Assembly: GCF_027924405.1 (NCBI RefSeq)
Contig: NZ_AP026978.1
Span: 2,666,001 to 2,730,000, forward strand
Direction of reading: 5' to 3'
DNA length: 64,000 bases
Source of the DNA: Nocardia sputorum
Lineage (GTDB): Bacteria > Actinomycetota > Actinomycetes > Mycobacteriales > Mycobacteriaceae
Shown here: one piece after another, positions 6,030 through 57,242 of the stretch
How the letters are laid out: each line of letters begins with the position of its first letter
Numbering within the stretch: the first letter of the stretch is position 1
Notes under the pieces: model-generated
Database searches by the model: none
Told to the model about the DNA's origin: nothing
What the model saw: the letters and a program-made list of their open reading frames with translations, nothing else
Program-made: the position numbers and the translations under genes

Positions 6030-6109
6030 GGCGGAGCCTCCTCGTCGCTGTGGTGCTGGTTGCTCTGCACCGGATCGGTGCACGACTGGATTCGCGGGCC
6101 CGCTCTTCC

Positions 6110-6138
6110 ATTAACGCCCACCACTAGTTGCTGGGCAA
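6110..6138 (-). promoter_or_regulatory. Promoter-like element of the 20-repeat IPT gene
   Basis: Minus strand: TTGCCC, 17 nt, GTTAAT, about 80 nt before the start codon at 6029. It matches the element upstream of the paralogue (945-974), including the shared 12-mer GGGCGTTAATGG. Confidence 0.5.
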
Positions 6139-7143
6139 TGTGTCTGCGATCCGTTTTCGGTCCGTTTTGGATGCCGGCGATGGAGACGAGAGCGGCTTGA
6201 CGGGATGCATCACTCGACGACCGCGGCCGCGATCCGGACCTGGCATGCGCTTGCCGCCGCGCAGATGAACGCCTGCCTGAGGCCCGCACGAGGGGAGGCC
6301 GCCGTCGGCGCCGGAGGTCGTGAAGGACTTCGGCCCCAACTTCTACGACTGGCCGGACACGGTCACCGACGACTTCCTGAGCAGCGTCACCTTCGCGCTC
6401 GGCGCCCACCAGGAAGCCACCGGTGTCTGCGACCGAGTTGATCGCCAGGTCGAGCACCCGCTCCAGCCGGTGCCGAACGGATCGAGTAAGTGGGCGTCGG
6501 TAATCGCTCGCCGCGCAAGATAATCGACGCGAGCCCCGCAGTACCCGGAGCGGACGCGTTCGGCAACACGACCCGCGCCCCGAGAACACATCCTCGACGG
6601 CGTACGCATCCCCCGGGACCTTTGCTGTCCTGCGGAGCGCGCCACCAAGCTCTGCCGCGTCGCGAGCCAGCTCGGTCGATCGCTGTGCTGGACAACCATT
6701 CCGGCATCCCGAGTCGATCCTCTTCCTGGATCGGTCGGCGTCGACGACGAGGGGGGTCAGCCACTGGGCAACGCCTGCTCACTCATCGTCGCCGGCATCG
6801 GGATCGCGCAGCGGGCCGGTGGATGCCACGGCGTCGGCGCGTCCGACGACTCGGTGACCGGGCTATGAGCTCGCCGATCACGCGATCGCAAACGCGAGGG
6901 CCGCTCCGGTGGCCGGCCACCGAGCCTCGACACCGAGACCTACGAACGGCTCGAACCACGGGGAGACACAACGTAGTCGTGGCGGCCGACTCCCGAGGCC
7001 TGCGCTGCGCCTCGTCGACTGATGTGTTGTCGCCGAGCGCTGCCCGCCGGAATCGACCGCCACGTCCTGCCTCGTTGGAGCACTTTCGCGCTGTACCGGA
7101 TTCAACCTCGCGTGCCACCGGGCGCGAGGCCCGGGGCATCAGT
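6139..7143. other. 1-kb region without a convincing gene; possibly degenerate coding
   Basis: No reading frame here has good coding character plus a ribosome site. Short protein-like patches occur on the plus strand, for example around 6320-6435 (V-K-D-F-G-P-N-F-Y-D-W-P-D) and around 6585-6620 (L-D-G-V-R-I-P-R-D), but they lie in different frames and are interrupted. I could not assign them to a family. The region may be a decayed gene or plain intergenic DNA. Confidence 0.4.
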
Positions 7144-11692: not shown

Positions 11693-12982
11693 TCAGCCCG
11701 GCAGTCGGCCGACGGTCGAGGTGCTGGACCGACCTCGGCGCACTCGCCGAACGAGTCCGCGGGCTATCGGGAACCAGAGCGGAGTGAGGACGGTGAGCGC
11801 GAGTGCGTGCCAGAGGGGCCGCCACCACCATGAGACGACCGGCGGGAACGATGTTGCGGTGGATGCGAGCGGCGCGGCGAAGGACCAGGCCAGGAAAGCG
11901 TCGCCGATGGGGAGGGCGCCGAAGGCGTAGCGTTTGGAATTGCCGAGAGTGACCGGCATGCCCAGGCTTTCGCCGAGGCCGGTGATCGGGCCGGCGAGGT
12001 TGCGATCGCCGTGCACCCGGGCCGCACCGATGGTGACCACCGTGGCCGAGGCGCTGACACCGAGAATAAGTGGCCCGGAATCGACATCGCCCGCGCCGCT
12101 GCGGCCGTGCGGATACTCCCGCACTCCGGGCAGGCCAAGCGGGGTATCTATGAAGAGTCGGCGGAAAGTACGGTACTGCTGCGCGGCCCACGCGGGGTCT
12201 ATCTCGGGCAGGAACCGCTGGATCATCGATTGTGACGAGCCGCGCGCACCCTCCATCATGGGTGCGGCTCGGTGCGGCAGTAGACCGGTCGCCGGATCCA
12301 GGTGCGCGCGAGCCGAGGTGAGCCATTCGGCGATCACCGGCTCGAAACGCGAGCCGAAGATACGATCGTGCAACCGCAACGCGGACACAGCCACCACGTT
12401 GTCGACCGGCCAAGCTTGACCCGGATACGCCGCAAGGAACGGCCCGTCCGTACCGAAGGCCACCGCGAGTGCTTCGCAGTCCGCGATGAATTGCGCCGCC
12501 TCCGGTGCGGCGGCGCCCGCGAGTTCGATCACGGCCCCGCGCAACCGGCTGGACCATCCGACATAGAACACCCCGTATGCCGGGCGCAGTCGCGCATCGA
12601 AAGCGCCACGGCCCGAGCCGGATTCCAAACGCTCCAGCGCCCAGCGTGCCTCCCGGAGCGCTTCGTCCCGATAGGTCGTGTCGCCGCGCGCCAGATCAGT
12701 CCACGCCAACCCGTACAGAACGTGCGAAAAGAAGAATCCCTCGGGGAACATGCCCTGCATCTCCTCCCCGAGCCCCGATCGCAATTCGGAACGAAGAAAC
12801 CGCATTTGGGCGATGACATCGGTGCGCGGCTGCTCATCCCGATACAGCCGAATCTGGGGAACGAGGAACACCAGCGTGAGCACAGCCGCGACGGCGACAT
12901 ACAGCGCCCCCGAGAGGGTGCGATGCGATTCTGGGTCCCGGTCGGCCGCAGAGGCCCGAGCGGAGCCGATCTTGTACCCCAT
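11693..12982 (-). CDS. Membrane-anchored protein of unknown function, alpha/alpha-barrel-like
   Basis: 429 residues from ATG 12982. A longer frame reaches 13291, but its extra part is Arg/Ser-rich and not protein-like. There is a hydrophobic segment near residues 25-45 (L-Y-V-A-V-A-A-V-L-T-L-V-F-L-V) and a second near the C-terminus (W-H-A-L-A-L-T-V-L-T-P-L-W-F). In between is a helical domain with Trp/Tyr/Gly motifs such as Y-G-V-F-Y-V-G-W and A-Y-P-G-Q-A-W-P-V-D-N, which recall alpha/alpha-toroid enzymes (linalool dehydratase/isomerase-like or glycosidase-like folds). That resemblance is by eye only. No strong ribosome site precedes the chosen ATG. Confidence 0.65.
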   Translation of the reverse strand: MGYKIGSARASAADRDPESHRTLSGALYVAVAAVLTLVFLVPQIRLYRDEQPRTDVIAQMRFLRSELRSGLGEEMQGMFPEGFFFSHVLYGLAWTDLARGDTTYRDEALREARWALERLESGSGRGAFDARLRPAYGVFYVGWSSRLRGAVIELAGAAAPEAAQFIADCEALAVAFGTDGPFLAAYPGQAWPVDNVVAVSALRLHDRIFGSRFEPVIAEWLTSARAHLDPATGLLPHRAAPMMEGARGSSQSMIQRFLPEIDPAWAAQQYRTFRRLFIDTPLGLPGVREYPHGRSGAGDVDSGPLILGVSASATVVTIGAARVHGDRNLAGPITGLGESLGMPVTLGNSKRYAFGALPIGDAFLAWSFAAPLASTATSFPPVVSWWWRPLWHALALTVLTPLWFPIARGLVRRVRRGRSSTSTVGRLPG

Positions 12983-13238
12983 ACTGGCGGAATCTATCAG
13001 AACGCATGTGGAGCAGAGAGTTTCGCGAGTTCGTGCGTCTCCTGGATCTGTGCTGGACGAATGCCGACGAGCCAAAGTTCTCGAGCGGGGTCGGCCCCTC
13101 CTTGCGGCTACTGGTCGCTGTGTCGGGCCGCGTGGGACCGGGAAGGACGGCTGCCGAGGAAGGCCATCGACTCGGCATTCAATCCTCGTTCTCCGGCCCG
13201 GGGAACTACACCGTAGCGTCCGTCGGCCCCCGCGCGTT

Positions 13239-13254
13239 GCGCATTCGAATGCGC
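13239..13254. promoter_or_regulatory. Perfect 16-bp palindrome
   Basis: GCGCATTCGAATGCGC is fully self-complementary and lies in the divergent gap about 215 nt before the gene at 13468. It is a candidate operator; the binding protein is unknown. Confidence 0.35.
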
Positions 13255-13375
13255 GCGGTTGCGGCATGGAAAGGGTTGGTCGGGCTCTCACTGCCGGATC
13301 CTAGGACCGAGTTCATCCGGTGTTGGAGCTGGCGACACGTCCGTTTCAGAAGTCGCGTGCATGTCGACCGCAATT

Positions 13376-13393
13376 CGAGTAGGCCACTACTCG
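13376..13393. promoter_or_regulatory. Inverted repeat upstream of the 13468 gene
   Basis: CGAGTAG-GCCA-CTACTCG is a perfect 7-bp inverted repeat about 75 nt before the start codon at 13468, a typical position for an operator. Confidence 0.35.
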
Positions 13394-13467
13394 CGCAATG
13401 ACGAGGCTGTTCGGCCACGATGATCGTGTCGGCGCGCCGAGCGTGAGCAGAGAAAGGAACACAACAA

Positions 13468-14331
13468 ATGACGACAACGCGGCAAACCCCCGATCTGATC
13501 GACAAGCTGCAGACTGCGATGCGTAGTCGAGAGGTGGTTGCGATACGGCCTCCAGCGGGTGACGGTGCCCAGGCAGGCGAGAGTTCGCGCGAGTGTGCTC
13601 ATCGCTTCGAGCGGGCAAAAGATCAACTGCTCGAAGAGATAGTAGATGAGCAAGCGAGCGTGGATTGGGAGGTAGCCCTGCTTCCGTTCAGGCTGGACGG
13701 TGAAGCAGGGGTGGGCACGATCGCGCGAGACATTCTCGAGAGCCGGGACGCCCTCACCAGCCTCACTATCGGCCCGGGATGCAGTGTCGTCGGTACGCCG
13801 TACGACCATGCGTACACAACGGGAACCGGATTCTCCGGCAAGCTCGATGGAAAGCCGCAGGTCGTTGGGGCGACCGATGGCGAGTCGGCAGGTGGAGCCG
13901 CTATCGATCTGTTTTCCGATAATCGCCTGGATGTAAGTGTGATACCAGCTGGGACATACTCCTGGAGCGTTCTCGCGTCCAACGCGGTACCGAACGCACG
14001 CAGCAGGGGTGGATTGGCGACGGTGACCTTTGTCGGCAACAATCCCAATCCGTCACTGCGGCGCGTGATTACACTGTGGGACGTGCAGGGCCTGGGGCAG
14101 CTGCACGGCTTCCACGGCGAGGGCGCAATCGCCGACGCCTACACTCCCGGGACCGGGCCGTTCAAGGTTACTTTGGCCCCCATTCCAGGCAGTTTGTTCC
14201 CTGGAGAAAGACTTGAAGTCTGGGTATGGGCCTGGATCATAAACAGCGGCGCGAACGGCGTCTTTTCTGCACTGACCTTGAACATGCCATCGTTCACCGT
14301 GTGTGCGGGGCACCCGGTCCCCGTTGGATGA
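13468..14331 (+). CDS. Protein of unknown function, likely beta-rich
   Basis: 287 residues; ATG preceded by AAAGGAAC. The N-terminal 85 residues are charged and helical, and the rest is rich in Gly, Thr, Val and aromatic residues, suggesting beta-sheet domains (for example V-I-P-A-G-T-Y-S-W-S-V-L-A and V-I-T-L-W-D-V-Q-G-L-G-Q-L-H-G-F-H). There is no signal peptide or known motif. It is followed after 51 nt by a metallopeptidase gene with its own ribosome site, so the two may be co-transcribed. I do not recognise the family. Confidence 0.75.
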   Translation: MTTTRQTPDLIDKLQTAMRSREVVAIRPPAGDGAQAGESSRECAHRFERAKDQLLEEIVDEQASVDWEVALLPFRLDGEAGVGTIARDILESRDALTSLTIGPGCSVVGTPYDHAYTTGTGFSGKLDGKPQVVGATDGESAGGAAIDLFSDNRLDVSVIPAGTYSWSVLASNAVPNARSRGGLATVTFVGNNPNPSLRRVITLWDVQGLGQLHGFHGEGAIADAYTPGTGPFKVTLAPIPGSLFPGERLEVWVWAWIINSGANGVFSALTLNMPSFTVCAGHPVPVG

Positions 14332-41131: not shown

Positions 41132-42022
41132 TTACTTCTTCCGCAGTCCATCCAGGGCCTGCTTGGCCTGATTTCTGGCGATGGCGCCGAGTTCGTCCGG
41201 ATTCACCGGCGGCTCGCCGTGCTGGCGCAGGATGGGGATTCGCACTCGCACCGAGACGTTGCTGTCCTGCACGCCGACGAGGTAGTCCATTCCAGTGGTG
41301 TAGCTGAATTCCGATACCGAGGTGTGCCAGTAACCCTGGGCACCGATTCCGGTCAACTCGCCGGATCCCGACCCCGACCCCGGGGTGGTGTCCTGGCGTT
41401 TCCAATCGTCGTAGGCGGGAGCTGCTCCGGCCGTTGTGAACTCGACGCGAAGGTCGATGCCCGCTTGATTCCAGTGCACGCCGTCGCCGGCGAGGCTCTT
41501 GTAGCTGAATTGGCAGGACAGACGGCCCGGGTCGTCGGCGCTCGGCGGGGTCTCGTGGTGGAAGGGCGGCCGGTCCGGTATAGACGACCACTTGTGCAAC
41601 GGGGCGGGATCGACCAGATCGCACGCATCGGCGATCCCGTTCATCGAATAGATGCCCGGCGCCGGTTCCGGGCGTGGAGTAACCGTGGCGGTCGACGATG
41701 TCGCCGGTGCGCCGGCGGACGCCTCGACAGCGGCGGACCGACTGCCACTGTCGCCGTCGGCGATGATGATGCCGATCATCACACCAGCGCCCAGCATGGC
41801 CACCAACGCGATCACACCAGCGGCGAACAGGACTGGCTTACGGTGATCGTCAGACGCGGACGCACCCTGCGATGCCACCGGCTGCGGCTGATACCCCTGG
41901 CCGATTCGGCCGAACCCTGTGTCGGACCGGGTCCAGTCCCCTTCCGAGGAAGATGGTCGCGGCGAAGTGTGCTCGAAGCCGCCCGGGGTCGAGTTGTCGG
42001 GTGCGTGCTGTGGGTCTGTCAT
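41132..42022 (-). CDS. Single-pass membrane protein, sensor-like extracellular domain
   Basis: 296 residues from ATG 42022 (GAAGGG upstream). The N-terminal 60 residues are hydrophilic, Pro/Ser/Gln-rich and presumably cytoplasmic. One membrane helix spans about 63-88, followed by a Thr/Pro-rich linker and an extracellular domain with A-D-A-C-D-L-V-D (Cys134) and L-S-C-Q-F (Cys170), a likely disulfide. The C-D-L-V-D/W pattern recalls DUF3558-type lipoproteins of mycolata. A close paralogue follows upstream at 42145. The receptor kinase nearby could phosphorylate the cytoplasmic tails, but this is speculation. Confidence 0.75.
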   Translation of the reverse strand: MTDPQHAPDNSTPGGFEHTSPRPSSSEGDWTRSDTGFGRIGQGYQPQPVASQGASASDDHRKPVLFAAGVIALVAMLGAGVMIGIIIADGDSGSRSAAVEASAGAPATSSTATVTPRPEPAPGIYSMNGIADACDLVDPAPLHKWSSIPDRPPFHHETPPSADDPGRLSCQFSYKSLAGDGVHWNQAGIDLRVEFTTAGAAPAYDDWKRQDTTPGSGSGSGELTGIGAQGYWHTSVSEFSYTTGMDYLVGVQDSNVSVRVRIPILRQHGEPPVNPDELGAIARNQAKQALDGLRKK

Positions 42023-42144
42023 CTCTTGCAGCCCTTCGATTCTCGACGTGCTTCCCGTCGGCCCTCCGCTTCGCGCCGATCGTACTTTCCCCCTTGCCGA
42101 GTTACCACCGACCGGCCTCGTCGGTCTGTTCGAGTCGACGGCTG

Positions 42145-43056
42145 CTAATTCTGTCGCAGTCCGGCCAGCACCTTGCGGGTTTGGGATCTGGCGACCGAAT
42201 CGAGTTCGTCTCTGTCGACTACGGGTGCGTCCTTCTCGCGGGAGAGGTCGATCTCCACCCGCACCGCGACCCCGCCGTCCCACACGCACATCACGTACAT
42301 CGCGTCCACGATGCCACCGAAGTTGTCGGCTTCGAACTGCCAATATCCTCGAGTGCCGATTCCGGTGAATTCCCCGGACGTCACCACGGAACCGTCGGCG
42401 GCGAGGTCGGCGGCGCTGCGTTTCCAATGGTCGTACTTTCGCGAAGCCGAACCGTCCATGACGTCGGCGCGGACCCGGACCGTCGCGGTATTCATGGGAA
42501 AGGCATCACCGGCGGAATTACCGTAGTGGACAGCGCAACTCAGCGTGCCGAAGTCGCCGGATGACGACGTCTCCTCATGGTCGGGAGCGATGCGCGGCGC
42601 TGAGGCCCACCTGGTCAACGGGGTGAGATCGACAAGGTCGCAGGCATCGGTGATCGCCCTCACCGAATAAGTCACCGGTCCCGGCGGCGCACTGGTCGAT
42701 GTGCCCGCGGAGACGCTGTCGCTGTGTCGATCACGCACGACGAAACCGATCACCACCCCGATCGCCAGCATCATCACGCCGAGCCCGACAAGACCGGCGA
42801 CGATGAACCCGGGCTTGCGGCGACCCAACTGCCGCGTCGGATCGGCTGGTGGGAGAGGTTGTCGCGGCGGCCAGTGCCCGCCACCGGGCGGCTGGTGCCC
42901 GGCGAAGGGGTGACCGGAGGGCGGAGACGACATAGGAGAGTAGTCCCCCGAATCCGGTACCGGCCGGCCATGTGTCGGAGAATCCGGTGGCCGTGTCGCA
43001 GAAGTGGCGTCCACCGCCCGCACCTGATCACCGGATTCGTGCGCAGCACCGCTCAT
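42145..43056 (-). CDS. Paralogous single-pass membrane protein
   Basis: 303 residues; ATG with GGAGGGG upstream, though a second start at residue 42 (M-S-S-P-P-S-G) is possible. Same architecture as its neighbour: Pro-rich cytoplasmic segment (H-W-P-P-R-Q-P-L-P-P), membrane helix about 82-107, and an extracellular domain with T-D-A-C-D-L-V-D (Cys139) and L-S-C-A-V (Cys174), then G-T-R-G-Y-W-Q as in the paralogue's G-A-Q-G-Y-W-H. A tandem duplication is likely. Function unknown. Confidence 0.75.
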   Translation of the reverse strand: MSGAAHESGDQVRAVDATSATRPPDSPTHGRPVPDSGDYSPMSSPPSGHPFAGHQPPGGGHWPPRQPLPPADPTRQLGRRKPGFIVAGLVGLGVMMLAIGVVIGFVVRDRHSDSVSAGTSTSAPPGPVTYSVRAITDACDLVDLTPLTRWASAPRIAPDHEETSSSGDFGTLSCAVHYGNSAGDAFPMNTATVRVRADVMDGSASRKYDHWKRSAADLAADGSVVTSGEFTGIGTRGYWQFEADNFGGIVDAMYVMCVWDGGVAVRVEIDLSREKDAPVVDRDELDSVARSQTRKVLAGLRQN

Positions 43057-44840: not shown

Positions 44841-45440
44841 GTGTTGATGGAAGTAGAGGGCGTCCACCACTCATACGGCAGGCGGTCGGTGCTGCGTGGC
44901 GTGGATTTCGCCCTACCGCCGAGGATGGTGGCGGGCGTCGTCGGCGAGAACGGGACGGGCAAGTCGACACTGTTGAAGGTTCTCTCGGGAGAGCTGCGAC
45001 CGGATCGGGGCGTGGTCCGCCATCGGGGGCGGTTCGGGTACTGCCCGCAGCGGGTCGTCTTGAACGACGCGTTCACAGTTCGTCAGCACTTGAATCTCTT
45101 CGCCGCGGCTTATTCGGTACCGGACCTGCGGCGAGCCGAGCAGACCATGGAGATTCTGCGTTTCTCCGAGTACGCCGATGAGCGGGTCGCGACGTTGAGT
45201 GGCGGTACCCGGCAGAAGCTCAACCTGACGCTGGCGGTGATGCACAACCCGCAGGTTCTGCTTCTCGACGAGCCGTACCAGGGCTTCGACTGGGAAACGT
45301 ATCTGCGTTTCTGGGATCTGGTCGAGCAGTTCCGTGACTCCGGCGGCTCGGTTCTGGTCGTGTCGCATCTGGCCTACGACACCGATCGACTGGATCAGGT
45401 GTGGCGATTGCACGACGGCGTCCTAGGAGGCAGGGAGTGA
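44841..45440 (+). CDS. ABC transporter ATPase (ABC-2 type system)
   Basis: 199 residues from GTG 44841; ATG two codons later is equally possible, and both have only a weak GGGCGG site upstream. Walker A is G-E-N-G-T-G-K-S-T, the signature is L-S-G-G-T-R-Q-K-L and Walker B is V-L-L-L-D-E-P; a switch His occurs in V-V-S-H. It pairs with the permease whose ATG shares its stop codon's last base (TGATG). The pair converges on the bifunctional terpene synthase gene. Export of a lipid or antibiotic-like compound is typical for this class. Confidence 0.9.
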   Translation: MLMEVEGVHHSYGRRSVLRGVDFALPPRMVAGVVGENGTGKSTLLKVLSGELRPDRGVVRHRGRFGYCPQRVVLNDAFTVRQHLNLFAAAYSVPDLRRAEQTMEILRFSEYADERVATLSGGTRQKLNLTLAVMHNPQVLLLDEPYQGFDWETYLRFWDLVEQFRDSGGSVLVVSHLAYDTDRLDQVWRLHDGVLGGRE

Positions 45441-46252
45441 TGGATCGAACGAACGAGAACGTGCGGCTGTTCGTGATAGCCACGCGCTACGGTCTGGTCG
45501 AGCATGCTCGTAACCGGTTCGCCTTGCTTCTGGTCGCTGTCTTCATCCCCGTGTTCGTCACACTGGCGGGCCTGATCATCACCGATACGCAGGTACCGTT
45601 CCGGCTCCGCGACACCGGTGTGGTCCTGCAGGCCAAAGGCAATGAACTGGCGCAGATTTCGGGTGCCCTGACCGCCGTCTGTCTGATCGTCGGGTTCATG
45701 ATGTTCGCGGCGACCTTCAGCAGCGGGGCGTTCGATCGGCGTCTGTGTATGGCCGGGTATCCCCGGGTCGCGCTGGGTCTGGCGAAGGTCGCTTGCCTGG
45801 CGCTGGCTGCGATGGTGGTCAGCGTCTACGCCACCGTGGCGATCTGCTTGTCTTGGTCGCCGCACCAGCCGATCGTGCTGGCCGTGGCGCTGTTCTGCGA
45901 CGCGATGACCTACGGGGCGCTGGGTGTCGTGTTCGGCACGCTGCTGCGCCGAGAGGTGGAGGGCATGTTCGCGATCGCGATGATCAGCTGCTTCGACATG
46001 GTCGTGCAGAACCCCGTGGCGAGTATCGGCGCGGACAGTGATGTCGTGCGGTGGCTGCCTTCCTACGGCGCCATGCAGGCTTCGACCGCGGCCGGTTTCT
46101 CCGACGCCACACTGTTCACGGGATTCGTTGTGCAGCTGGGCTGGTTCACCGCGAGCGTCCTGGTCGGGCTGGTCGCTTTTCATCTGCGCACCCGTTCGGC
46201 TCTCGACGCCACGACACCGATCGGCCTTCCAGGACAACCGGCGAAGCAATGA
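45440..46252 (+). CDS. ABC transporter membrane subunit
   Basis: 270 residues; ATG overlaps the ATPase stop, with AGGAGG and GGGAG upstream. About six membrane helices are predicted, including L-L-L-V-A-V-F-I-P-V-F-V-T-L and V-C-L-I-V-G-F-M-M-F-A-A, in the layout of ABC-2 permeases. It forms the transporter with the preceding ATPase. Substrate unknown. Confidence 0.85.
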   Translation: MDRTNENVRLFVIATRYGLVEHARNRFALLLVAVFIPVFVTLAGLIITDTQVPFRLRDTGVVLQAKGNELAQISGALTAVCLIVGFMMFAATFSSGAFDRRLCMAGYPRVALGLAKVACLALAAMVVSVYATVAICLSWSPHQPIVLAVALFCDAMTYGALGVVFGTLLRREVEGMFAIAMISCFDMVVQNPVASIGADSDVVRWLPSYGAMQASTAAGFSDATLFTGFVVQLGWFTASVLVGLVAFHLRTRSALDATTPIGLPGQPAKQ

Positions 46253-46323: not shown

Positions 46324-48330
46324 TTACACTCCGGTACGCGCCGGGTCGGGGGCCGGGTAGTAGTAGAGCTGACGACGCAGGCGTTCCAAGTCCGGAGTCC
46401 CGGAGGACGTGGTCGGCGTGTACCGATCGGCCTGATGTAGCCGCAACGCCAGGTCCTTACCGTTCTCGAAGATCGCCAGGTACTCTCTCCGTCGGCCGGA
46501 CAGACCTGGGATCATGCGGAGCAGCGGCGGGATATAGCGGATGATCGCGTCGATCTGAGTACGCTTCTCGGCCACCTGGTGTCGCACCTGCTCGACGGCT
46601 TCGTCACGACTGCATCCGGTCTCGTGGCAGATCGCGCGAACCAGGTTGTAGGGAGTGTTGTCGGCCTCGTCCTGGTCCAGTCCCGCCAGATCGTTCTCTG
46701 CCGCGGTCACCGCGAAGAGCAGTTCCTCGAAACGGCGGAACACCGGGTGGCGACGCAGCGTCGACGGCAGTTCGAGGTCGTAGTACGCCTCCATGCAGGC
46801 GAGGAAGATGTCGGCCCCGAAGGTCGATTTCCGCAGCGGCAGGTAATCGGCTGTGGTGGGGATGTAGCCGTCGATGCGATGGTGCGCTTCGCGTTCGCAG
46901 GCTTCGAACCAGTCTTCTGCGCTGTCGAGAAACCGCTCCTGCCAGCCGATGGTGCGGCCCTCGCGCAAGCGCGGCCATACGCTCGCCCACGCAGTCGCGA
47001 TCGCGCCGGAACGCGGAGCCTGCGGGTCCTGGCGCAGCATGGCCACCAGTCCCCGCCGCAGCGCGGTGACAGCTTCGCGATCCCTCCAGCGGGGATCCTC
47101 GAACATGTCATCCCACACCACGGCCAGTGCTGCCATTCCGACGAAAGCCTGTTCCCGGGGCGTGTCCATCGCCGCCGCGACACGCATCGGAAAGCGGAAC
47201 GCCCCTGCCCACCGGTGGTGACGATCGAACTCCTCCGCAGAGGCGATCAATCCGGTGTCGGCCATCCAATTTCGCAGCCAGCTCATGACAGATGGTGGGA
47301 ACACCGCACCGTCGGCCTGCGGCTGCGTCGACTGCTCGGCGACAGCAGCACCTGGCGTTCTGCGGTCGAGTATGGATCGGGCATAGGCGATCATCTCGTG
47401 GCGGGCGCGAGGGTCGACGGCCACGGCGGCCAGCCGACCGGCGGCCTCGTCCATGAATTCGTCGGCCAGCGCGTGCGCCTCGGTCACGGCGCCGGAGGCG
47501 AGGACGAGTTCCCGGGCACGGGCAGCTTCCTCGGCGGTCATCGCTCTGTGGAGCAGACGGGTGAGATTCCGGTCGACGGCAGCCGCGCGGATCACGGGCA
47601 ATGTGTAGATGCCCTCAGGCAGGTCCGCGTTGACGGGTTTGCCCATTTCTCCGGCGGTCGAGGTCAGGTCGAGGATGTCGTCATACAGCTGGTAGGCCAG
47701 TCCGAAGTGTCGACCGAACGATGCCAGCGCCTCTTCGTCATCCTCGGGCCGCCCCGCCTGCATGGCGCCGACACGGCATGCCAGCGACAGGATCGCCGCG
47801 GTCTTGCCGTCGATCGAGTCCAGGTATGCCTGTTCGCTGCGGGATGCCGCGTACTGATCCGCCGCCTCGATCACCATGCCGGCGCACATCTGCTCGCCGG
47901 CGATGGTCGCCGCGAGAACTTCGCGCAGGCCGAGTTCGGCGAGCAAGCGCGTGGCCGATGTCGTTATACAATCACCGGCCAATACCGCCATATGCGAACC
48001 CCAGACGGCGTTGGCGCTGGGACGACCCCGACGCTGGTAAGCATGATCGATGACGTCGTCGTGGTACAGCGATCCCAGGTGCAGCAACTCGACCGCGGCA
48101 GCGGCACGCACGGCGCGGTCATCGGCCGGTGCTGACGGATCGGTGAGCAGATAGTACGACAACAAGGTCAAAGTGGGACGAACCAGACGGCGGGTGCTCT
48201 CCGAAGCCTCGTCGGTGAGCGCGGTCAGTTCGGGCCTGCCCTCGAATCGGACGGGGCCGAGGACATCTCGGACGCGGTCGAGGTCGGCATCCAAATGCGG
48301 GAAGACGGCAGAATCGATTTCACTGGGCAC
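46324..48330 (-). CDS. Bifunctional polyprenyl diphosphate synthase - class I terpene synthase fusion
   Basis: 668 residues from GTG 48330, chosen for AGGAG 7 nt upstream; the upstream extension is not protein-like. The N-terminal half (about 1-325) is a trans-prenyltransferase with first D-D-V-I-D (Asp91, 92, 95, followed by Q-R-R-G-R-P-S-A-N) and second D-D-I-L-D (217-221), most like actinobacterial GrcC-type long-chain synthases. After a short linker the C-terminal half (about 345-668) is a terpene cyclase: D-D-M-F-E-D (407-412), N-D-L-A-G (NSE region, Asn546/Asp547 with Asp554), pyrophosphate-sensor Arg500 exactly 46 residues before Asn546, and R-Y at 636-637. All catalytic motifs look intact in both halves. 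The product is unknown. This domain order is the reverse of fungal bifunctional synthases. Confidence 0.88.
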   Translation of the reverse strand: MPSEIDSAVFPHLDADLDRVRDVLGPVRFEGRPELTALTDEASESTRRLVRPTLTLLSYYLLTDPSAPADDRAVRAAAAVELLHLGSLYHDDVIDHAYQRRGRPSANAVWGSHMAVLAGDCITTSATRLLAELGLREVLAATIAGEQMCAGMVIEAADQYAASRSEQAYLDSIDGKTAAILSLACRVGAMQAGRPEDDEEALASFGRHFGLAYQLYDDILDLTSTAGEMGKPVNADLPEGIYTLPVIRAAAVDRNLTRLLHRAMTAEEAARARELVLASGAVTEAHALADEFMDEAAGRLAAVAVDPRARHEMIAYARSILDRRTPGAAVAEQSTQPQADGAVFPPSVMSWLRNWMADTGLIASAEEFDRHHRWAGAFRFPMRVAAAMDTPREQAFVGMAALAVVWDDMFEDPRWRDREAVTALRRGLVAMLRQDPQAPRSGAIATAWASVWPRLREGRTIGWQERFLDSAEDWFEACEREAHHRIDGYIPTTADYLPLRKSTFGADIFLACMEAYYDLELPSTLRRHPVFRRFEELLFAVTAAENDLAGLDQDEADNTPYNLVRAICHETGCSRDEAVEQVRHQVAEKRTQIDAIIRYIPPLLRMIPGLSGRRREYLAIFENGKDLALRLHQADRYTPTTSSGTPDLERLRRQLYYYPAPDPARTGV

Positions 48331-49948: not shown

Positions 49949-52333
49949 TTATCCGCCGCCCGGCGCGTCTTGACTCGGCCCCACTTGGATGCCCACCACG
50001 CAGGTGTCGTCGTCGGTGTCGGCATCGCTGGCGTCGAGCAGGTCGTCCAGACGGTCCTCCAGGCTGCCGGTGAGTTGTGCCGACGTCGTGAGCAACCGGT
50101 CTACGCACTCGTCCAGAAGCCGGTCTCGGCGCTCGATGAGCCCGTCGGTGTAGAGCAGGAGAGTGTCGTCGGTTTCCAGTTGGAGTTCTGCTTCTTCGAA
50201 GGTCGTCTCCGCCACGGCGCCGAGGAGCATTCCTTTGAGCATGGGCAGGCTGGAGGCCCGGCCCGCACGCACCAGCACCGGCGGCAAGTGGCCCGCGCGG
50301 GCCCAGCGCAGCACCCGGGTGTGCGGATCGTAGAGCCCGCAGATGGCGGTGGCGAAGATGTTGTCGGTCAGGTGGTGGGCGACCTGGTTCAGCCAGGTCA
50401 GCATCTGGCCCGGGCCCGCGCCCGTGGCGGCGAGGCCGCGCAGGGCGTTGCGAAGCACGACCATGCCGGTGGCCGCCTTGATGCCATGGCCGGTGATGTC
50501 CCCGACCGACACCAGGATCTGTTTGGTGGGCAGCACGATCGCGTCGTACCAATCGCCGCCGACCGTGTAATCCTGCTCGGCAGGCCGGTAGCGCACCGCG
50601 ATGCGCAGCCCGAACGCCTCGATGGACGGCTGCGCGTCCGGCATGATCGCCTGCTGGAGTTGCCGCGCCAGCTGGCTCTGTTCGGCGGCGTGCTGCTCGG
50701 TGTGCGCCAGCCGGTCGCGCGTCGCGGACAGCGCGACCTCGGTCCAGTGCTGCGCGGAGATGTCCTGATAGGCGCCGCGGACGGCGGCCAGGTGCCCCGC
50801 CTCGAGGACCGGTTCGGCGACGATCCGGATGTGCCGGGCCACGCCGTCCGGCCGAATCAGGCGGAAGGCCGTGGAGGCCGAGCGGCGGTAGCGCAGCAGG
50901 GTACGCAGGAACCGCCCCACCGCATTCGCGTCGTCGTCGTGGACGTGCGCGGGCAGCTGGGAAAGCGGAATCGGGTCCGCGGTCGGCGCCAGCCCGTAGA
51001 GGTCGAAAAGCTGGTTGCTCCAGGTGATCTCGCCGGTGGCCGCGTTCTCCTCGAATCCGCCGACACGGCCCAGACGCTGGGCGTGTTGTAGCAGCGCCGC
51101 CAATCGCGCCGTCTCGTCCTCGACCCGCCATACCACGAGCACGGTGTCTCCATGGCGGCTGATGCTGAGCGCGGCCGAGACGGTGAGCGGCACTTGGTCC
51201 ACCAGTTCGGTCAGCAAGACCCGGTCGGCACGGTAGGTCTCACCGGTGGCGAAAACGTGCTCGATTCGCTCGAACAGCCGCCCATCGCTCGCGGCCATCG
51301 GGTACGCCTCGAGCAGCAGCGCGCCGTTGACCAGGCCGCGGGGCCGGCCGGCCGGGTCGACGAAGCAACTGTTGACGTAGTGAATGCAGAAGTCGACGAG
51401 CGCGCCGCTGTCGTCGAGGTGGGGCAGCAGCACGAGCGCTGGGTCGAAAAGGCCGTCCGCGAGCCGCACCAGAAGCGCGACGTCGGGCCGGTCCGGTGTG
51501 CGCACCGCGGCCGAGTCCGACTCCAGGGTGTGCGCGCACAGCTCGGCCAACGCCTCCAGCTGCCGGTGCACCGGGGGCGGCTGCGGCGCGAGCGGCTGTG
51601 GCCAGCACACCTCCAGCACGCCGAGCAGCTTGCCTCCCGCACCCGCCGGAATCGCCGCACGGCCGCCGTCGCGGGCACCGATCGACGGGAGCCCGGACCG
51701 GCCCAGGTCCCGGATCCACACCGCGTTGCGTTCCACCAGCGCCTGCCGCGCCGGGGTCGCCACCCCAGGCGGAACATACCGCCATCGCTCGGCCTCTTGC
51801 GGGCTGATGCCGGCGAAACCCGCCAGGGTCAGCGACGCGTCGGCGCCTGCCGCCCAGATCGCCACGGCTGTGGCGCCCAGCGGCGTCACGGCGTGCTCCA
51901 GCACCGACTCCGCCACACGGTGCGTGTCGCCGGCCGCGAGCAGCCCGCTTTCGGCGGTGCGCAACCGCACAGCCGCCGATGGCTCCTCCCGCGTGGCGGT
52001 GCGCAGCAGGAACTCTCCGACGACCGCGCTGACCTCGTCCTGGGCCGCTTGGTCGACCAGCTCGGCGGCCAACTCCAGCGGTGTGATGCCCGCTTGCTCG
52101 GCGAGGGCGTCGAGTTGCCGCGCCGCCTGCGCGGGTCCGCAGTGCAGCCGTTCCACCAGCACGCCCTTGGCCATCTCGATCAGCGCGCGCCCGTCGGCGG
52201 TGGCCTGGGCCTGCTGGATCTGCGCGCGCAACCGCTCCACGGTGGCGGCGAGTCGGTGGACGGCGGGCCCCGTCGCCGGGTGGGCGTTCGCTGTCGTATC
52301 GGTCTCCGCGTCGGGGCTGTCCAACTCCGTCAT
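49949..52333 (-). CDS. ANTAR-GAF-PAS-PP2C (SpoIIE/RsbU-type) phosphatase
   Basis: 794 residues. The ATG shares its A with the stop of the histidine kinase gene (TGATG), so the two are translationally coupled. Order: ANTAR-like three-helix domain near 30-95 (A-L-I-E-M-A-K-G-V-L-V-E-R), GAF about 125-280, two PAS-like segments (about 290-400 and 420-530; the second contains L-G-R-V-G-G-F-E-E-N), and a PP2C phosphatase from about 580 with G-G-D-W-Y-D-A-I and V-G-D-I-T-G-H-G metal-binding motifs. Such phosphatases dephosphorylate anti-anti-sigma factors. No anti-sigma or STAS protein gene is adjacent. ANTAR domains usually bind RNA antiterminators, so the protein may act at two levels. Confidence 0.88.
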   Translation of the reverse strand: MTELDSPDAETDTTANAHPATGPAVHRLAATVERLRAQIQQAQATADGRALIEMAKGVLVERLHCGPAQAARQLDALAEQAGITPLELAAELVDQAAQDEVSAVVGEFLLRTATREEPSAAVRLRTAESGLLAAGDTHRVAESVLEHAVTPLGATAVAIWAAGADASLTLAGFAGISPQEAERWRYVPPGVATPARQALVERNAVWIRDLGRSGLPSIGARDGGRAAIPAGAGGKLLGVLEVCWPQPLAPQPPPVHRQLEALAELCAHTLESDSAAVRTPDRPDVALLVRLADGLFDPALVLLPHLDDSGALVDFCIHYVNSCFVDPAGRPRGLVNGALLLEAYPMAASDGRLFERIEHVFATGETYRADRVLLTELVDQVPLTVSAALSISRHGDTVLVVWRVEDETARLAALLQHAQRLGRVGGFEENAATGEITWSNQLFDLYGLAPTADPIPLSQLPAHVHDDDANAVGRFLRTLLRYRRSASTAFRLIRPDGVARHIRIVAEPVLEAGHLAAVRGAYQDISAQHWTEVALSATRDRLAHTEQHAAEQSQLARQLQQAIMPDAQPSIEAFGLRIAVRYRPAEQDYTVGGDWYDAIVLPTKQILVSVGDITGHGIKAATGMVVLRNALRGLAATGAGPGQMLTWLNQVAHHLTDNIFATAICGLYDPHTRVLRWARAGHLPPVLVRAGRASSLPMLKGMLLGAVAETTFEEAELQLETDDTLLLYTDGLIERRDRLLDECVDRLLTTSAQLTGSLEDRLDDLLDASDADTDDDTCVVGIQVGPSQDAPGGG

Positions 52334-55300
52334 CAGGCACCCAGCCAGTGCTGGATGCACGCGATCAAGGCGTCCGCGTCGACCGGCTTGGTGACGTAGT
52401 CGTTGGCACCCGAGGCGAGGCTTTTCTCGCGGTCGCCCAGCATCGCCTTGGCCGTGACGGCGATGATCGGCAGGCTCTCGTACTGCGGCATCTCGCGGAT
52501 CGTCGCCGTGGCGGTGTAGCCGTCCATCTCGGGCATCATCACATCCATCAGGACCAGGTCCGTCTCCGGATGAGCGAGGAGCTTGTCGATGCCCTCGCGA
52601 CCGTCCTCCGCGTGCAGCACGCTCATGCCGTGCAGTTCGAGGATGCTGCTCAGGGCGAAGAGATTGCGGGCGTCGTCGTCGATGATGAGCACTGTGCGGC
52701 CGGCGAGCTTGCCGTCGGGCCGCTGCGGCGCCGCGGTCGGTGCGTCTTCCCGACGGACCAGCGGCAGCATGTCGCCGGGCGCCTCGGCGGTGACGTGCAG
52801 CGCGATCCGTTCCCGCAGATCGTCCAGGCTGGACAACAGCTCGAGCGGCTGACGCGTGGTGCGATGTTGCAGCAGGCGTTCTTGCTCGGCGTCGAGCCGG
52901 CGGTTGTGGACGAGTACCGGAACGCTGCTCAACGCGGCGTCCCCGTTCATCGTCTCCAGGAACCGCAGCGCGGCGCCGTCGGGCATGTCCAGCTCGAGCA
53001 CCACGCAGTGGAACGCTTCGGCGGCCATCGCCGCCGCGGCTTCTTCCACCCCGACCGCGGTGACGACCTGGACCGGCCCGCGGGGATCGTTACTGTCCGC
53101 GAGTTCGGCGACGGCGCTCTGCGCGACCAGCGACAGCAGACCTTGCGGGCGTTCCTCCACGACCAGCAGCCTGCGGTGCTGTGGGGGCGCGGAGGGAGCG
53201 GGAGTGCGCTCGGGGCGGTTGTCGGCCCGCGGTGCGTCCTCCCGTTCGCGGGGCGGCGCCTCCTGGAAGTCCGGGCGGGCGACCGGAAGATACAGGGTGA
53301 ACGTGCTGCCCTGGCCGGGCACGCTCTCGGCGGTGATGGCGCCACCGAGCAGGTAGGCGATCTCGCGGCTGATCGACAAGCCCAGACCGGTGCCGCCGTA
53401 CTTGCGGCTGGTCGTGCCGTCGGCCTGCTGGAAGGCGCCGAAGATCGACTCCAGCTGGTGTTCGGCGATGCCGATACCGGTGTCGATCACCCGGAACGCG
53501 ACGGCCGCGCCGTGCTGGCGCACGGCGGCGGGCAGCTCGCTCGCCTCCGCCGGTTCGATCCGCAGCTGCACCGATCCGGTCTCGGTGAACTTGACCGCGT
53601 TGGACAGCAGGTTCCGCAGCACCTGCCGCAGCCGCGAGTCGTCGGTGAGCAGGTCCGACGACAGGCCGGGCGCGGTCGTGACATGGAAGCGGAGACTCTT
53701 CTGAGTGGTCATCGGCCGGAAGGTGGCCTCGACGTAGTCCAGCAGCTGACGCAACGACACGCGCTCCGGGGCGAGGTCCATCTTGCCCGCCTCCACCTTG
53801 GACAGGTCGAGGATGTCGTTGATCAGCTGCAGCAGGTCCGAACCCGCAGAATGGATGATGCCCGCGTACTCGACCTGCTTGGGGGTGAGATTGCGGCTCG
53901 GGTTCTGGGCAAGCAGCTGCGCGAGGATCAGCAGACTGTTCAGCGGAGTGCGCAGCTCGTGGCTCATGTTGGCCAGGAATTCCGACTTGTACTTCGAGGC
54001 GAGCGCGAGTTCCCTGGCGCGGGTCTCCAGTTCCTGCCGAGCCTGCTCGATCTGCAAGTTCTTGGCTTCGATGTCGCGGTTCTGCATGGCCAGCAGCGCC
54101 GCCTTGTCTCCCAGCTCGGCGTTGGAACGTTGCAGCTCTTCCTGCTGTACCTGCAATTCCTCCGACCGGGCTTGCAGTTCGGTGGTCAGGCGCTGGGATT
54201 CGACCAGCAGCTCGTCGGTGCGGGCGTTGGCGATGATCGTGTTGACGTTGACGCCCACCGTCTCCATCAGCTGGTCGAGGAAGTCCCGGTGGATGCGGGT
54301 GAAGCGGTGCAGGGTGGCCAGTTCGATCACACCGAGGACTTGGTCCTCCACCACGATCGGCAACATGAGCAGATGGACCGGCGCGGTCTGTCCCAGTCCG
54401 GAGGAGATGGTGACATAGTCGCCGGGCACGTTCTCCACGGCGATCGTGCGACGGCTGCGGGCCGCCTGGCCTACCAGGGATTGGCCGAAGGCGAATCGCG
54501 ACGGGCTGCCGGGCTCCTCCGGGCTGCCGTAGGAACTGATCAGCCGCAGTTCCGGCTGCTCCTCGCTGTCGTCGGCGAGGTAGAACGCGCCGAATTGCGC
54601 GGAAACCAACGGCGCCAGCTCGTCCATGATCAGCCCGGCCACCACGTGCAGGTCTCGCTGGCCCTGCATGAGACCGGAGATACGGGCCAGGTTGGTCTTC
54701 AGCCAGTCCTGATCTTGGTTGGCCTTGGTGGTCTCGCGCAGCGACTCCACCATCGCGTTGATGTTGTCTTTCAGCTCCGCGACCTCGCCGGAAGCCTCCA
54801 CGGTGATGGAGCGGGTCAGGTCGCCCTCGGCCACGGCGCTGGTGACCGCGGCGATCGCGCGGACCTGGCGGGTGAGGTTGCCCGCCAGCTCGTTGACGTT
54901 CTCGGTCAGCCGCTTCCACGTGCCCGAGACGCCTTCGACCTCGGCCTGCCCGCCCAGCCGGCCCTCCGAGCCCACCTCGCGGGCGACGCGGGTCACTTCG
55001 GCCGCGAACGCGGACAGCTGATCGACCATCGTGTTGATCGTGGTCTTCAACTCGAGAATCTCGCCGCGGGCGTCCACGTCGATCTTGCGGGTCAGATCGC
55101 CCTGCGCGACCGCGGTGGTGACCTGGGCGATGTTGCGGACCTGGTTGGTCAGATTGTTCGCCATGGAATTGACGTTGTCGGTCAGGTCCTTCCACGTGCC
55201 CGCCACGTTCGGAACGCGAGCCTGACCGCCCAGCATGCCCTCGGTGCCGACCTCGCGGGCGACGCGGGTGACCTCGTCGGCGAACGCGGACAGCGTGTCG

Positions 55301-56865
55301 ACCATCGTGTTGATCACACCGGCGAGTGCCGCGACTTCGCCCTTGGCCTCCACCGTGATCTTCTGACTCAGATCACCGCGTGCCACCGCCGTGGCGACCT
55401 GGGCGATCGACCGCACCTGGCCGGTCAGGTTGGAGGCCATCACATTGACGTTGTCGGTCAGGTCCTTCCAGGTGCCCGAGACGCCACGTACGGTCGCTTG
55501 GCCGCCGAGATTGCCCTCCGTGCCGACCTCGCGTGCGACGCGGGTGACTTCGTCGGCGAAGGCGGAGAGCTGATCGACCATCGTGTTGATGGTCTCTTTG
55601 AGCTCCAGGATCTCGCCGCGGGCGTCCACCCTGATCTTCTGGCTCAGATCGCCACGGGCCACCGCGGTGGTCACCTGCGCGATCGACCGGACCTGCGCGG
55701 TCAGATTGTCGGCCATGACGTTGACCGACTCGGTGAGATCCTTCCAGGTGCCGGAGACGCCCTTGACGTCCGCCTGGCCGCCCAGCCTGCCTTCGGTGCC
55801 GACCTCACGGGCGACGCGGGTGACCTCGTCGGCGAACGCGGAGAGCTGGTCCACCATGGTGTTGATGGTGTTCTTCAACTCCAGGATCTCGCCACGCGCG
55901 TCAACCCTGATCTTCTGGGACAGATCGCCCTGCGCCACCGCGGTGGCCACCTGGGCGATCGAACGGACCTGCGCGGTGAGGTTGCCTGCCATGAAGTTCA
56001 CGGAGTCGGTGAGGTCGCGCCAGGTGCCGGAGACGCCCTTGACGTCCGCCTGGCCACCGAGGATGCCCTCGGTGCCGACCTCGCGCGATACCCGGGTCAC
56101 TTCGTCGGCGAAGGACGAGAGCTGATCGACCATCGTATTGATGGTGTTCTTCAGTTCCAGAATCTCGCCGCGGGCGCTCACCGTGATCTTCTGGCTCAGA
56201 TCGCCCTGCGCCACCGCGGTCGTGACCTGGGCGATATTGCGGACCTGATCGGTCAGGTTGCCCGCCATGAAGTTCACCGAGGCGGTGAGGTCGCGCCACA
56301 CGCCGCCGACGCCGGGCACCTCCGCCTGACCGCCCAGGCGGCCCTCCGAACCGACTTCGCGGGCGACGCGGGTGACCTCGTCGGCGAACGCGGAGAGCTG
56401 GTCCACCATCGTGTTGACGGTGTTCTTCAGCTCCAGGATCTCACCGCGCGCGTCCACATCGATCTTCTGGGACAAGTCGCCGCGCGCCACGGCCGTCGCG
56501 ACCTGGGCGATGTCACGCACCTGACTGGTCAAGTTGCCCGCCATCGCGTTCACCGAGTCGGTGAGGTCCTTCCAGGTACCAGACACGCCCGGCACCTCGG
56601 CTTGACCACCCAGTCGCCCGTCCGTCCCGACCTCGCGCGCAACCCGGGTGACCTCCGAGGTGAACAGCGACAGCTGATCCACCATGCCGTTGAACACCGT
56701 TGCTATCTCGCCGAGCAGCCCGTCGGCGTCGGTCGGTAGCCGAGTGCCGAAATCACCGTCGCGCACGGCCGTCAACCCGGCCAGCAACTGGCGCAACTCG
56801 TCCTGGTCCGCGGCCATGACAGCCTGCTCCGCCGCGGCGCGGACAGATGCCGCCGTATCCGTCAT
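52333..56865 (-). CDS. Poly-HAMP hybrid histidine kinase (Nik1/group III-like)
   Basis: 1510 residues from ATG 56865; GAGG lies 6 nt upstream, whereas an ATG two codons earlier abuts it. Residues 1-714 hold eight tandem poly-HAMP modules, six of exactly 92 residues with [23 protein letters not shown] domain (about 735-885), a coiled coil, HisKA with M-S-H-E-L-R-T-P (His969), an ATPase domain (G-G-T-G-L-G-L) and two receiver domains follow. The first receiver lacks the acidic pair (V-V-E-E); the second is complete (Asp1441). No membrane helix is seen, so it is cytosolic. The layout resembles fungal osmosensing and fungicide-target kinases and actinobacterial homologues. Confidence 0.92.
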
Positions 56866-57242
56866 GCTCATCCTCGTTCTGCCCCACCCGTATAGGACGC
56901 GACACCGCGCACGGCGGGTCGCCGACCAACGGTGCTGTGCTGGCTGCTGAACACGGATGCACCGGCGGCTATGCCCCTGAAAGTATCATCAGCAGACCTA
57001 TCGCTCAGCATTCATCGAAGGCTTCGAGGAATGACACCCGCCGCCGGCCGGCTACACGGCTGCTGCCCTGGATTGGCGAAGTTGCTCCGAGCCGCCTGAC
57101 CCGGCGGCGCGACCTCACCCGCGTGGAACAGGTCGAAACTTCTGTTGCGGAAGGTTTCCCGCGGCGCGGAGGTGCTATTCGGTGAAGTACCGGACACAGT
57201 GCCCTGCTGAGGGTTGCGATCAGACTGTTCAAGGAGGATTTC
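56866..57242. other. Divergent intergenic region
   Basis: It lies between the histidine kinase and the small protein gene at 57243. No gene or clear repeat was seen; it presumably holds both promoters. Confidence 0.4.

Follow-up and report, generated by a model that had tools for sequence, protein, structure and literature searches.

Architecture of the fusion gene

The minus-strand gene at 46324-48330 of the window (the whole stretch of Nocardia sputorum DNA that was analysed, 64,000 nucleotides) raises the question whether a single bacterial protein may both synthesise a prenyl diphosphate and cyclise it, and which neighbouring genes such a protein would act together with. The initial annotation had proposed a single-chain prenyl synthase and terpene cyclase with the prenyltransferase half in first position, and the Pfam families, the sequence conservation and an AlphaFold2 model all agree with this proposal. 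The gene is divided as follows:

46324-48330, minus strand: fusion gene of a prenyltransferase (PT) and a terpene synthase (TS), 668 aa, GTG start at 48330, stop codon at 46324-46326
47356-48330, minus strand: PT half, residues 1-325, PF00348
47299-47355, minus strand: disordered linker, residues 326-344, pLDDT below 50 at residues 326-338, mean pairwise identity 0.31
46327-47298, minus strand: class I TS half, residues 345-668, PF19086

The plus-strand translation of 46324-48330 is interrupted by two stop codons. On the minus strand the open frame extends past the GTG codon to 48432 (702 aa, TTG). An AGGAG motif is located 7 nt upstream of the GTG codon, and the ORF of the relative L007 starts at the same residue as the 668-aa version; translation may also start at an ATG farther upstream of the GTG. 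According to a Pfam scan of the 702-aa frame, in which the residue numbers are 34 higher than in the 668-aa numbering, PF00348 (polyprenyl synthetase, E 6.3e-51, residues 71-302) precedes PF19086 (terpene synthase family 2, E 3.1e-35, residues 434-624) in one and the same frame, both scoring above their cut-offs.

The structure prediction for both halves that the initial annotation had recommended provided an AlphaFold2 model with a mean pLDDT of 88.5. In this model the N-terminal half, which scores with PF00348, adopts an all-alpha PT fold and the C-terminal half, which scores with PF19086, a class I terpene synthase fold; the pTM of 0.57 leaves the placement of the two domains relative to each other unfixed by the model.

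Distribution of the fusion

A protein search with the fusion retrieved 194 proteins at E <= 0.001. Both Pfam domains were present in all of the at least 120 relatives listed, which share 57-90% identity with the query and belong mostly to Nocardia; named Streptomyces proteins among them range at 57-59%, and one record named S. gardneri reaches 70%. The usual names of these full-length relatives, "polyprenyl synthetase family protein", "heptaprenyl diphosphate synthase" and "geranylgeranyl pyrophosphate synthase", hide the cyclase half, at least among the matches listed.

Scanning one genome per species revealed 35 loci, comprising 32 full-length or near full-length Nocardia fusions (66-95% identity, the closest in N. 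beijingensis with 95%), a fragment in Nocardia (L033) and two remote matches to the PT alone (L034, L035). An extra fusion copy in Nocardia fusca (L030, 10001-11674) matches only piecewise and looks degenerate, judging from its sequence; full-length copies of the same species were detected as well (L022, L031).

The TS half was detected at E <= 1e-30 in 34 of 150 Nocardia genomes at 50 places; at 49 of them the open frame comprises at least 608 codons, at the remaining one 204. The concern about a frameshift or stop codon between the halves, which the initial annotation had named as a possible refutation of its own proposal, is answered by these open frames.

Outside Nocardia the fusion was met sparsely. 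It was found in two of 397 genomes of an order sample (both Nocardia, one being the window's own genome), in one of 396 genomes of a phylum sample (the window's own), in three of 392 Streptomyces genomes and in four of 394 genomes of a class sample (three from a third actinobacterial genus besides the window's own). In these samples, as in the 150 Nocardia genomes, misses are possible since only the best 3 to 14 candidates per genome were scored. The fusions of the third genus share 45-47% identity with the Streptomyces query and 44-46% with the gene in the window, whose own genome contains a single fusion and, besides it, three PT-like matches. The search of bacterial genomes suggested in the initial annotation thus uncovered a family in Nocardia, Streptomyces and a third genus, and the fusion is a real and conserved bacterial gene and more than a chance ORF.

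A protein search with the TS half, which reaches only relatives sharing exact words with the query, gave a similar picture. Of its 19 matches, 18 (51-82% identity, with 27-100% of the query covered) look like members or pieces of the PT-TS family on the basis of their sequences, and the sole relative outside the family shares 26% identity. In Streptomyces sp. ACA25 a TS half (294 aa, P0134) and a PT half (398 aa, P0143) occur as separate proteins on contigs of equal length (300,846), and their summed length is close to that of the fusion; they possibly represent a split copy.

The adjacent ABC transporter

The initial annotation treated the fusion gene as isolated. However, its most informative feature is a linked two-gene ABC transporter, which adjoins it at 44841-46252:

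44841-45440, plus strand: ABC transporter ATP-binding protein, 199 aa, PF00005 (E 2.7e-26), with Walker A, LSGG and Walker B motifs
45401-46252, plus strand: ABC-2-like membrane subunit, 283 aa, approximately six hydrophobic segments, 40-nt overlap with the ATPase gene

The membrane-subunit gene and the fusion gene are convergent and 71 nt apart. The membrane subunit scored 26.0 bits against PF12698, below the cut-off of 31.6, it had no PDB match at E <= 1, and its AlphaFold2 model was too poor for a structure search (pLDDT 50.8). Since score, PDB search and model of this subunit are weak, it is the ATPase, the hydrophobic segments and the arrangement as a gene pair that support its designation as part of an ABC-2 exporter.

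Among the 150 Nocardia genomes the fusion occurs in 34, the membrane subunit in 34 and both together in 33 (Fisher p 7e-31, a value which ignores the relatedness of the species). Genome G091 carries the fusion, on a 10-kb contig, and has no transporter match. Another Nocardia genome possesses the transporter pair (L051, G077:C34:69800-70621), and no fusion gene was detected in it; this pair is perhaps the remnant of a lost cassette.

When the 32 Nocardia loci were searched by tblastn, 24 contained the membrane subunit and 23 the ATPase. The other neighbours in the window recurred rarely, namely the LysR, DUF1330 and BrkB-type genes in one locus each, two others in two loci each and one in none. 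When all ORFs of at least 120 codons from the window and the 32 Nocardia loci were clustered, no gene cluster beyond the fusion and the transporter was present in more than 5 of the 33 loci. In the 23 Nocardia loci whose match to the membrane subunit covers over 200 residues, 26 fusion-transporter pairs were counted, of which 21 are convergent, 4 share a strand and 1 is divergent. In three loci two fusion genes are located around one transporter.

The transporter was not found by tblastn in 8 of the 32 Nocardia loci, some loci being cut at contig ends. Six of these eight belong to species with a linked copy elsewhere and the remaining two are both from N. brevicatena. In a tree of the family (arbitrarily rooted, L030 left out) the copies lacking the transporter are scattered among the linked ones.

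In all three Streptomyces genomes the transporter pair adjoins the fusion in convergent orientation, with the membrane subunit at 63-65% and the ATPase at 79-81%. In all three genomes of the third genus the genes for ATPase, membrane subunit and fusion follow each other on a single strand, separated by small gaps or slightly overlapping, and form an operon. Further neighbour genes are common to the three genomes of the third genus, for which reason tailoring enzymes are possible there. All three also have, immediately upstream of the operon, an ORF whose start is signal-like (L057-L059, e.g. L057 6651-7298); this ORF may or may not be part of the operon.

Movement of the three-gene block

The copy on a Streptomyces megaplasmid and the chromosomal copy of L062, likewise from Streptomyces, share 92% DNA identity over 3,865 alignment columns, and the match spans the three genes and hardly more. 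No other match at E <= 1e-10 was detected between the compared regions of 18 kb and 14 kb. High identity of the block without common flanks indicates that the three genes have moved as a unit, and thus as a cassette, at least between these two Streptomyces replicons.

The 1.56-Mb linear plasmid of Streptomyces sp. NBC_01483, which bears the cassette at L063 6001-9552, is mobilizable according to prediction, and the PLSDB gene table shows no entry at these positions. In L062, ORFs resembling IS3-type transposases were noticed by eye on both sides of the block (5323-6302 and 12584-13878), which represent a possible route of its movement.

For the locus in the window an empty insertion site was sought by searching for the LysR and BrkB-type neighbours in 40 relatives each and by comparing the regions of three LysR orthologues from fusion-free genomes (L047-L049) with the window. 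The DNA similarity to these three regions ends directly outside the LysR gene, and an empty site could not be shown in this comparison.

Proposed function

We consider it likely that the fusion is a bifunctional synthase which makes a prenyl diphosphate and cyclises it, that the adjacent transporter moves the product and that the three genes constitute a mobile cassette. The PT half would condense DMAPP or a short allylic diphosphate with IPP to a linear prenyl diphosphate, which would then pass to the tethered cyclase, the flexible linker presumably holding the two active sites together. In the TS half the diphosphate would be ionised and removed with the participation of Mg2+, the Asp-rich and NSE-type motifs and Arg500, leading to ring closure. 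The putative ABC-2-type transporter may export the resulting (poly)cyclic terpene or flip it into the cell envelope, and the three genes would together form a small cassette able to move as a unit.

The linked transporter offers a testable answer to the question how the product leaves the producing cell. No tailoring enzyme was found to be conserved with the cassette in the compared Nocardia and Streptomyces loci, and a single heterologous expression experiment could therefore reveal the product.

Chain length of the prenyl diphosphate

The PT half had been described in the initial annotation as similar to long-chain, GrcC-like synthases. This fits its nearest solved relatives, which are heptaprenyl and C45 synthases, the best PDB rows being mostly C35-C50 synthases (heptaprenyl, C45, solanesyl, decaprenyl). 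The structure comparison of the AlphaFold2 model also places the PT half close to long-chain synthases, and the TS half close to epi-isozizaene synthase. Some high rows in both the sequence and the structure listings, however, carry the label of a GGPP synthase. The NCBIfam models for heptaprenyl (154 bits), IdsA short-chain (149 bits) and solanesyl synthases (147 bits) scored close together, and none of the best 25 PT models, in which short- and long-chain types are mixed, reached its cut-off.

The two sites before the first DDxxD motif, which we take to be relevant for the chain length, are occupied by G, A or S and then by S, A or T, and thus never by a bulky residue, in all 125 long members of the family that formed our conservation set (a few rows of which may duplicate one gene). 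No decisive residue for the chain length emerged from the sequence comparisons. The predicted PT product is most likely C20 or longer.

It is quite conceivable that elongation by the PT half ends with FPP or GGPP and that the cyclase is a conventional sesqui- or diterpene synthase, in which case the products would be ordinary C15 or C20 terpenes and the fusion merely a new packaging. The close scores of the short- and long-chain models and the GGPP synthase labels are compatible with such a product, and the closest solved cyclases of the TS half are sesquiterpene synthases (avermitilol and epi-isozizaene synthase, best E 1.8e-23), a finding that lends no support to a long substrate. The small residues before the first DDxxD motif and the predominance of C35-C50 synthases among the top PDB rows argue against it. 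Only tentatively do we extend the proposed bifunctional synthase to a family which makes prenyl diphosphates of C25-C35 or more, cyclises them by a class I mechanism without squalene and is served by a dedicated ABC transporter within a horizontally mobile minimal cassette.

Role of the transporter

The best NCBIfam model for the ATPase was drrA, a daunorubicin resistance transporter, which would fit a transporter for self-protection or uptake instead of terpene export and a cassette acting as a small antibiotic or signal locus. Yet the score of 117 bits is far from the cut-off of 312 and varied transporters follow close behind. Taking furthermore into account that the Nocardia and Streptomyces loci contain no conserved tailoring or resistance gene and that the transporter is the sole constant neighbour of the fusion, a role in self-protection or uptake seems rather unlikely. 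The best PDB matches of the ATPase were ABCA proteins, which transport lipids, closely followed by ABC-F proteins; because ATPases are alike, this resemblance is a weak hint.

Catalytic residues and selection

Both D-D-x-x-D motifs in the N-terminal half and the full class I set in the C-terminal half, as read from the sequence in the initial annotation, are present. Their positions and conservation among the 125 long members are the following:

48046-48060, minus strand: first Asp-rich motif of the PT half, D91 D92 V I D95 (D91 and D92 125/125, D95 124/125)
47668-47682, minus strand: second Asp-rich motif of the PT half, D217 D218 I L D221 (D217, D218 and D221 125/125)
47095-47112, minus strand: Asp-rich motif of the cyclase, D407 D M F E D412 (D407 and D408 125/125; D412 is D in 122 and E in 3)
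46831-46833, minus strand: pyrophosphate sensor Arg500 (125/125), 46 residues before N546
46669-46695, minus strand: NSE-type motif, N546-D-L-A-G550-L-D-Q-D554 (N and D 125/125; site 550 is G in 94, S in 25 and T in 6)
46420-46425, minus strand: R636-Y637 pair (R 125/125, Y 100/125)

The reported spacing of exactly 46 residues between the sensor Arg and the Asn of the NSE motif was confirmed (Arg500 to Asn546), and the R-Y pair is found at R636-Y637. In addition, the PT sites K176 and K231 are invariant (125/125).

In three pairs tested by a rough NG86 estimate, with dS up to 0.85, dN/dS was below 1 for both halves (0.12-0.14 for PT, 0.22-0.32 for TS), and by this estimate both halves are under purifying selection. 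The pairwise identities of the PT halves and the TS halves correlate with each other (r 0.80; 703 pairs from 38 sequences).

Among PDB sequences, the PT half is closest to component 2 of the heterodimeric heptaprenyl synthase of B. subtilis, so that it could be structural or need a partner subunit as in heterodimeric heptaprenyl synthases. The cyclase, in turn, could be vestigial, considering that its NSE motif is a variant with N/G/D instead of N/S/E (G, S or T at the middle position, D in place of E) and that Y637 is replaced by H in 22 of 125 members. However, the metal ligands of both halves are kept in nearly all 125 sequences and selection acts on both halves in the three pairs, which makes it improbable that only one half is catalytic. 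Activity of both, as expected of the bifunctional synthase, appears the better explanation.

Two further roles were considered. Omega-cyclic menaquinone synthesis is regarded as a genus-wide trait of Nocardia and was rejected because the fusion is limited to 34 of 150 Nocardia genomes. Cargo of a Family 2 encapsulin was rejected: the PT cargo model was the best-scoring NCBIfam model, but its 184.5 bits did not reach the cut-off of 450, and no encapsulin was found among five scanned neighbours of the fusion gene. Moreover, a passage in PMC8346489 describes PT and terpene cyclases as distinct cargo types of these encapsulins.

Comparison with known systems

The class I synthases for avermitilol, epi-isozizaene and pentalenene resemble the C-terminal half in fold and motifs. 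These bacterial enzymes are monofunctional and use prenyl diphosphates made elsewhere. The PT half shares its fold, both DDxxD motifs and the conserved Arg and Lys sites with HepT, Rv0562 and OsSPS3 (heptaprenyl, C45 and solanesyl synthases), which lack an attached cyclase and show approximately 23-30% identity to it in structure alignments.

In its mode of action the fusion is probably similar to the fungal chimeric terpene synthases (PTTSs). Fusicoccadiene synthase (PaFS) and macrophomene synthase (MpMS) also combine a trans-PT and a class I cyclase in one chain and lead by the same logic from IPP and DMAPP to a cyclic hydrocarbon, as outlined in passages of PMC7065159, PMC9177416 and PMC8307374. 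According to the last of these, PTTSs are "occurring only in fungi", and a section of PMC9177416 reports that fungal chimeras can yield C30 products via hexaprenyl diphosphate.

In contrast to the PTTSs, in which the TS domain precedes the PT domain as stated in part of PMC7065159, the fusion described here begins with the PT domain. The reverse order noted in the initial annotation is thus real, and by domain order the fusion falls outside the PTTSs. It also differs from them by the linked ABC transporter and by the top-ranked relatives of its halves, which come from bacteria and plants for the PT and from bacteria for the TS. Fungal chimeras were absent from the best 60 PDB rows per half (134 matched for PT, 69 for TS) and from the best 50 VIA-align and the best 50 Foldseek rows; the VIA-align rows were filled by the PT half, and absence from these two structure listings excludes nothing. 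A bacterial family with reversed halves suggests that the same solution arose separately from the fungal PTTSs.

In bacteria, a passage of PMC13010261 describes the gromomycins as cyclised hexaprenyl products encoded by separate genes, and part of PMC11574762 reports a cyclase that is joined to a truncated HMBPP reductase. A bacterial PT-TS fusion was not found by searches of open-licence full texts in PMC, and passages of PMC10509563, PMC12298776, PMC11234867, PMC10301674, PMC10055836, PMC10881772 and PMC11762266 do not mention one.

Other features of the window

The window also contains, at 52333-56871 on the minus strand, an ORF of 1512 aa resembling a hybrid histidine kinase, in which approximately seven similar repeats of about 90 residues were recognised by eye as HAMP-like. 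Furthermore, two adjoining minus-strand ORFs (41132-42427 and 42145-43056) share similar C-terminal halves, a proline-rich start, one hydrophobic segment and the motif "DACDLVD", and by eye they look like tandem paralogues.
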